Origin: Armatimonas rosea
Lineage (GTDB): Bacteria > Armatimonadota > Armatimonadia > Armatimonadales > Armatimonadaceae
Assembly: GCF_014202505.1 (NCBI RefSeq)
Contig: NZ_JACHGW010000001.1
Span: 62,001-126,000, forward strand
Direction: 5' to 3'
Length of the DNA: 64,000 nucleotides
Shown here: positions 45,356 through 46,005 of the stretch, one piece after another
Layout: each line of letters begins with the position of its first letter
Position numbering within the stretch: the stretch's first letter is position 1
Translations under genes and position numbers: made by a program
The notes under the pieces: model-generated
Database searches by the model: none
Told to the model about the DNA's origin: nothing
Seen by the model: only the letters and a program-made list of their open reading frames with translations

Positions 45356-45489
45356 CAAAACTGGCGTCGTTAACAGTGCAGAGATAGTACATCGCTATAG
45401 CCTGGCCCTGAACCTGTCAGAATTACCTTTCAGCAATTGCGGTATTTTAGGAATTTCGTAGATCAAATCTGCTCCTAGGAGTGATGTGA

Positions 45490-45495
45490 TACGAT
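45490..45495 (+). promoter_or_regulatory. putative -10 of the riboswitch transcript
   Basis: TACGAT would start RNA about at the first base of the riboswitch P1 helix. An overlapping GATAAT (45493-45498) is an alternative. No good -35 is seen, so another sigma factor or an activator is possible. Confidence 0.4.
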
Positions 45496-45498
45496 AAT

Positions 45499-45597
45499 AA
45501 AGCGTGCAGGGCAAAGCGTCCCGAAAGGGCGTGACGCAAAACCACGGGCCTTCTGTCTTCCTCTCGGGGAAGTCCTGGTAGCCGGGTTGCCGCGCTT
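45499..45597 (+). ncRNA. cyclic-di-GMP-I riboswitch (GEMM)
   Basis: All conserved parts of the GEMM-I aptamer are present in order. These are the P1 strand AAGCG, the GTGCAGGGCAAAG core, a P2 hairpin capped by the GAAA tetraloop (CCCGAAAGGG), the GTGACGCAAAACC junction, and a P3 arm. The tetraloop receptor and ligand-binding segment CCTGGTAGCCGGGTTGCC follows, then the closing strand CGCTT. The P1 5' strand AAGCG (45500-45504) recurs at 45614-45618 against the ribosome-binding site of the next gene. The closing strand can therefore pair with one copy or the other. Ligand binding should favour P1 and free the ribosome site, so this is probably an ON switch. Confidence 0.93.
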
Positions 45598-45628
45598 ATG
45601 ATTTTCAATCGAAAAGCGAGGCAAGAAC

Positions 45629-45925
45629 ATGAGAATCTCAAATGAGGAGCTACGGCGAATTGCCGATCAGGGCAGCCGTGGGGCGGTTATCGAGGAGGGG
45701 TGCATGGTTACGAGCAGTGTCCACCTACCTGAAGAGAGCGTGGTTTCCGCGCTAGAGTCGTCAGATATGAAAATGATAAGCGATGCACTGGCAAGAGTAC
45801 CTGACACGCGTGATCAGATCGTTGCGAGCCTAAAAGAGCGGATTGAGTCGGGGAGCTACCAGGTGACTGGCGAGCAGATCGCCGAGATGATGGTGCGTCG
45901 TGCCCTCGCCGACAGGATGCGCTAG
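45629..45925 (+). CDS. FlgM-like anti-sigma factor, 98 aa
   Basis: The C-terminal part (MISDALARVPDTRDQIVASLKERIESGSYQVTGEQIAEMMVRRAL) matches the FlgM consensus of helices that wrap the flagellar sigma-28. The N-terminal half is divergent and probably flexible. GAGG lies seven bases before the ATG, beside the AAGCG segment that can be captured by the riboswitch. No flagellar gene is in the window. It may inhibit a FliA-type sigma for motility or pili when c-di-GMP is high; the target is inferred. Confidence 0.85.
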   Translation: MRISNEELRRIADQGSRGAVIEEGCMVTSSVHLPEESVVSALESSDMKMISDALARVPDTRDQIVASLKERIESGSYQVTGEQIAEMMVRRALADRMR

Positions 45926-45958: not shown

Positions 45959-45992
45959 GAGGCAGGTCGGGCAGGTTGCCCCGACCTGCCTC
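45959..45992 (+). terminator. intrinsic terminator after the FlgM-like gene
   Basis: GAGGCAGGTCGGG (45959-45971) pairs with CCCGACCTGCCTC (45980-45992), followed by TTTTT. Confidence 0.92.
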
Positions 45993-46005
45993 TTTTTGCG
46001 TCAGA

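Follow-up and report, generated by a model that had tools for sequence, protein, structure and literature searches.

A c-di-GMP-I riboswitch ahead of flgM in Armatimonas rosea: a probable translational gate on an anti-sigma-28 factor

Among the closest described relatives of the locus analysed here is Cd1 of C. difficile, a c-di-GMP-I riboswitch of the early flagellar flgB operon, which holds sigD; it is an OFF switch that acts on transcription (PMC5386303, PMC9262584). The leader of flgM in Armatimonas rosea, a member of the Armatimonadota, carries an aptamer of the same class, and both systems tie c-di-GMP to the output of a sigma-28 factor (SigD in C. difficile) at the RNA level. They differ in target, sign and level of control: Cd1 switches off transcription of the sigD operon, whereas at the A. 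rosea locus the target is an anti-sigma factor and the control is predicted to be ON and translational. The initial annotation of the locus put forward an RNA-level link between c-di-GMP and sigma control; we retain that idea, but the link would not be the first, as Cd1 controls an operon with sigD (PMC5386303). In the same organism flgM is SigD-dependent (PMC5386303). That FliA-FlgM feedback resembles the circuit proposed below in that the anti-sigma factor is transcribed by the sigma factor it inhibits, but there flgM is not described as riboswitch-gated.

A second precedent operates through a protein. The actinobacterial anti-sigma factor RsiG, once it has bound c-di-GMP, sequesters WhiG, a sigma factor of the FliA family; WhiG governs sporulation in Streptomyces and, it is believed, type IV pili in Rubrobacter (PMC8325347). 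There, too, c-di-GMP arms an anti-sigma factor against a FliA-family sigma factor, with the net sign that we predict for A. rosea; in contrast, RsiG itself senses the ligand, whereas in Armatimonadota the sensor would be the mRNA, and FlgM belongs to another family. Finally, Vc2 of Vibrio cholerae is a c-di-GMP-I ON switch whose target is a tfoX homologue (as described in PMC12564702); it shares the aptamer class and the ON response to ligand, but its target is not an anti-sigma factor. Our literature search returned no publication that describes flgM behind a c-di-GMP riboswitch, although an entry in the supplements of early GEMM surveys is possible, and none that treats signalling by c-di-GMP in Armatimonadota.

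The aptamer, the FlgM family match, their linkage across the phylum, the cognate anti-Shine-Dalgarno pairing and an upstream sigma-28 promoter in most families are computed. From these features we propose that translation of FlgM, an anti-sigma-28 factor, is probably controlled by a c-di-GMP-I riboswitch, which its ligand would switch on and which, in most relatives, would close a feedback loop on sigma-28.

The aptamer-flgM tandem and its promoter

The analysed stretch of DNA (the window) comprises 64,000 nucleotides of the 6.3 Mb A. rosea genome; its relevant features are collected in Table 1. The initial annotation described the aptamer as complete, and a covariance-model search with Rfam bears this out: RF01051 is matched over its full length (model positions 1-87, E 1.4e-8), above the gathering score, and is the sole Rfam match in the whole window. 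At the position equivalent to G20 of Vc2, in a numbering that we carried over to the A. rosea leader, the base is G, as it is in 67/67 aligned leaders of relatives. A G20A mutant of the aptamer binds cGAMP (PMC6274999), and the G found here rules out a cGAMP-type aptamer. Judged by its sequence, the leader is a c-di-GMP-I riboswitch that would be expected to bind c-di-GMP.

Table 1. Positions in the window of the features of the flgM leader and gene
Feature	Position	Strand	Evidence
-10-like element TACGATAAT, right before the aptamer, kept in the sister species; putative promoter	45490..45498	+	two-leader alignment
c-di-GMP-I (GEMM-I) aptamer	45500..45594	+	RF01051, 57.3 bits (gathering score 35 bits)
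P1 5' strand AAGCG of the initial annotation; sister species without it	45500..45504	+	sequence; two-species alignment
GUGC, putative alternative P1 5' strand, pairing with GCGC 45592-45595; in both species	45504..45507	+	alignment; inference from sequence
G at the Vc2 G20-equivalent position, c-di-GMP-type base (not cGAMP-type)	45510	+	RF01051 alignment
Aptamer 3' strand UUGCC-G-CGCUU, with P1/aptamer and the Shine-Dalgarno region as alternative partners	45587..45597	+	
AAGCG-A-GGCAA, Shine-Dalgarno region complementary to 45587-45597 (10/11 pairs)	45614..45624	+	kept in the sister species
Shine-Dalgarno GAGG	45618..45621	+	sequence
flgM, FlgM-family anti-sigma factor, 98 aa	45629..45925	+	PF04316, 46 bits (cutoff 25)
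Intrinsic terminator after flgM	45969..45995	+	terminator scan

The start codon of flgM lies 34 nt 3' of the aptamer, and the Pfam match of its product upholds the FlgM-like anti-sigma target that was first annotated. Given the strong terminator that follows it, flgM looks like a one-gene transcription unit; parA and parB come next. FlgM is present in a single copy in the genome and adjoins the only GEMM-I copy. None of the 67 FlgM proteins of the relatives (0/67) contains E-X3-S-X2-R-X3-Q-X3-D, which we take to be the c-di-GMP-binding motif of RsiG, and its absence rules out a protein-level sensor of the RsiG type.

The pairing of aptamer and gene is not peculiar to A. rosea. GEMM-I was found in 173 and FlgM in 215 of 291 Armatimonadota genomes, and the tandem was read in 67 of them, the leaders of which represent 45 genera and 13 families. 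These leaders run into FlgM-type starts (MRIS, MKIS, MQIS and similar), with 24-124 nt (median 57) between aptamer and start. Recurrence in 13 families rules out a chance neighbourhood, and a FlgM target, which the initial annotation thought unusual, is the standard arrangement in this phylum. A search of the collection with a narrow FlgM alignment returned seven Armatimonadota loci and one weak match outside the phylum.

Two further observations concern GEMM-I aptamers in the relatives. In family f15, those ahead of flgM (L083, L085, L087, L092 and others) mostly score 30-46 bits and often lack the CAAAC and GAAA tetraloop elements; they look like diverged GEMM-I aptamers in which binding is perhaps altered. 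Additional GEMM-I copies (L071, L072, L075, L034) precede mutually similar secreted proteins with lengths from about 490 aa upwards, a second shared target family that is perhaps subtilase-like.

To describe the promoter, we took the best match to TAAA-N14-16-GCCGATAA in the 90 nt upstream, scored out of 12. The mean over all leaders is 9.96, against 7.58 in shuffles; a score of at least 11 is reached by 26/67 leaders and 0/1779 control windows of the same loci, and a score of at least 10 by 42/67 and 15/1779, respectively. In most families outside f1, the family of A. rosea, and f15, the match is found about 12-28 nt upstream of the aptamer. A site scan likewise placed matches a short way upstream of the aptamer in genomes G163 and G222. 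Sites of this kind also stand ahead of flagellin in G163, where only one FliA exceeds the cutoff, and ahead of flgF-flgG in G183. It therefore seems that sigma-28 transcribes its own anti-sigma factor. In most relatives, then, the c-di-GMP-gated anti-sigma factor appears to be transcribed by the sigma factor that it inhibits, and the recurrence of the tandem together with this promoter points to a long-standing feedback loop with c-di-GMP as its gate. Family f1 has no recognisable sigma-28 promoter here (7-9/12), and ahead of A. rosea flgM a consensus scan gave no sigma-70 site and a sigma-28 match of only 7/12. Upstream of the promoter region, a block at 45412-45440 of the window (CCTGTCAGAATTACCTTTCAGCAATTGCGG) is well kept in the sister species and is perhaps an operator.

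Pairing over the ribosome site

The aptamer's 3' strand is complementary to the Shine-Dalgarno region: UUGCC (45587-45591) faces GGCAA (45620-45624) and CGCUU (45593-45597) faces AAGCG (45614-45618), with one G.A mismatch between the two blocks. The initial annotation had proposed a competing helix from the AAGCG repeat, and we confirmed its positions for both copies of AAGCG, for CGCTT and GAGG, and for the ATG at 45629. The helix is longer than it had recognised, and is supported by cognate-specific pairing over many genera. As for the repeat itself, the Shine-Dalgarno-side copy is conserved, but the 5' P1 copy differs in the sister species (G008), the nearest relative in the genome set. Including the apical stem that closes its loop, the competing hairpin has a folding energy of -15.1 kcal/mol (z -2.1), and over the paired core, that is, the aptamer 3' strand and the Shine-Dalgarno-side copy, it is unchanged between the two species. 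GGCAA was found upstream of 0/64 other gene starts in the A. rosea genome, and GGCAA or GGCAG directly follows the Shine-Dalgarno sequence in 22/26 flgM genes versus 1/96 other starts.

A permutation test on duplexes from 45 genus representatives, in which kinship among genera is uncorrected, gave -13.8 kcal/mol for the aptamer 3' tail with its own flgM ribosome site versus -11.5 kcal/mol for non-cognate pairs (p = 1e-5). In the own and allied families (f1, f7, f8, f9) the values are -17.3 versus -14.1 (p = 1e-5), and specificity for the cognate site is also seen in f2, f14, f16, f19 and f26 (p = 2e-4). It is missing in f15 (p = 0.92) and in f31-35 (p = 0.21), which rules out the competing helix as a phylum-wide universal. 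A terminator scan found terminators only after flgM and none between the aptamer and the start codon; translational control is therefore the simplest reading.

We propose the following model. When c-di-GMP is absent, the aptamer 3' strand would pair over the Shine-Dalgarno sequence of flgM and hide the ribosome site. Binding of c-di-GMP would fold the aptamer and take up this strand, so that the ribosome site opens and FlgM is made. FlgM would then bind sigma-28, a member of the FliA family, and keep it inactive. Because transcription of flgM would start at a sigma-28 promoter in most relatives, the outcome there would be negative feedback on sigma-28 that works only at high c-di-GMP. The mechanism first annotated is supported, at the level of sequence, for the clade of A. 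rosea, while its role in A. rosea itself is uncertain.

Sigma-28 and the flagellar state of A. rosea

The initial annotation expected the switch to shut a sigma-28-type regulon through a FliA-type sigma factor. Such a factor is encoded in the genome (TIGR02479, 234.8 bits), but its gene (L118:10289-11062; G000:C4, minus strand) is interrupted at codon 128, which is an in-frame TAA here and GAA in the sister species; the C-terminal part can restart at an ATG shortly after the stop. This single fliA lies outside any flagellar cluster and overlaps a downstream TPR gene. Compared with the gene of the sister species, it shows 17 changed residues, counting the stop, and 99 synonymous nucleotide changes; the stop therefore either arose recently, reflects an error in the assembly, or is read through. 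Furthermore, the flagellar export gene flhA was not found in the A. rosea genome. The sister species has it, in a flagellar cluster that also encodes another FliA and another FlgM, the latter without an aptamer. With the stop in fliA, no flhA found and weak evidence from the few sigma-28-type sites, the shutting of a sigma-28-type regulon is doubtful in A. rosea, where the switch may have become an orphan recently or may act on genes without a flagellar role.

A real switch might work, in aflagellate members, on a non-flagellar sigma-28 regulon, much as WhiG-RsiG is believed to control pili in Rubrobacter (PMC8325347); we regard this as possible, if on the doubtful side. It would fit the presence of FliA without flhA in many genomes. 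In G055, G123 and G222, among others, the aptamer, flgM and an intact FliA are all kept without flhA, which indicates that the module can outlive the flagellum. The A. rosea genome has five strict sigma-28-type sites versus two in a reversed-pattern control, and 3/5 are intergenic. Among the intergenic TAAA-N-GCCGATA sites, one stands 47 nt ahead of a PAS-GGDEF-EAL gene (L239:1426-3405), which would feed back on c-di-GMP if the site is real, and another precedes a group encoding a DUF4114 secreted protein, a TPR-like protein and an exosortase (L238:136-3717). However, five sites against two is a weak difference, and TAAA-N14-16-CCGATA is unenriched, with nine matches versus ten in the reversed control, most of them within ORFs, and no regulon visible. 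The interrupted FliA of A. rosea also speaks against such a regulon, as does the finding of no pilus genes behind the sigma-28-type sites of its genome.

Alternatively, the A. rosea switch could be a recent relic: with flagella lost and fliA broken by the stop, the riboswitch and flgM would still be there only because too little time has passed since the loss. The differences from the sister species in flhA and at codon 128 of fliA point this way, as do an aptamer bit score below that of most close relatives and a flgM promoter that is not sigma-28-like. Against it stand the conservation with the sister species of the aptamer core, the 3' strand and the Shine-Dalgarno copy, and the pattern of changes in fliA, by which both halves of the gene were selected until recently, unless the stop is an assembly error. 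The retention of the module with an intact FliA in the three genomes named above argues in the same direction, and we consider a relic possible but not the likelier outcome.

Sign of control and implications of the proposed circuit

The claim that c-di-GMP frees the ribosome site was examined by folding, with the bound state mimicked by swapping the aptamer for an inert hairpin, a crude model that picks no sign in several families. Accessibility of the ribosome site rises on aptamer formation in f1 (4/4), f7 (5/5), f8 (8/10) and f31 (3/3), in agreement with the claim; in the other families, including f2, f9, f26, f32 and f35, it is on average unchanged or lower. As the site opens in f1, f7, f8 and f31 only, the model supports an ON sign for the clade of A. 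rosea and not for the whole phylum.

The leaders of f31-35 (L126, L127, L129-L136, f32/f35) carry, shortly 3' of the aptamer, GUUUGCC, the complement of the aptamer's GGCAAAC, with a U-run. We read them as a second type of expression platform, which may have either sign.

The opposite sign, in which ligand lowers FlgM as in the Cd1 OFF switch of C. difficile, is unlikely. The unchanged or lower accessibility averaged over f2, f9, f26, f32 and f35 in the crude folding would agree with it, as would the U-run after GUUUGCC in f31-35, but folding gives ON in the family of A. rosea and in f7, f8 and f31, and the A. rosea leader has no terminator between aptamer and start codon. It is more improbable still that the FlgM-like protein targets a different sigma factor or serves some other function: the NCBIfam equivalog TIGR03824 gives 32.6 bits, below its cutoff of 40.75, so that the product is a FlgM-family protein and no proven FlgM equivalog, and the genome holds further sigma factors with FliA-like regions, but the Pfam FlgM score is well above cutoff and most relatives have a sigma-28 promoter ahead of flgM.

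The c-di-GMP-gated anti-sigma factor would be a case of convergence, as c-di-GMP would reach FliA-family sigma factors via different molecules in clostridia, actinobacteria and Armatimonadota. More tentatively, sigma-28 transcribing its own anti-sigma factor behind a c-di-GMP riboswitch could be the ancestral circuit of the Armatimonadota and a third independent route from c-di-GMP to a FliA-family sigma factor, besides Cd1-SigD and RsiG-WhiG; it could have outlived the flagellum in several lineages and serve other genes there now. It would offer a regulatory module whose persistence after loss of the organelle it served can be put to the test. If the proposed control is true, RNA alone would connect the main signal of sessile life with the final step in the control of flagellar genes, throughout a phylum that has been little studied.
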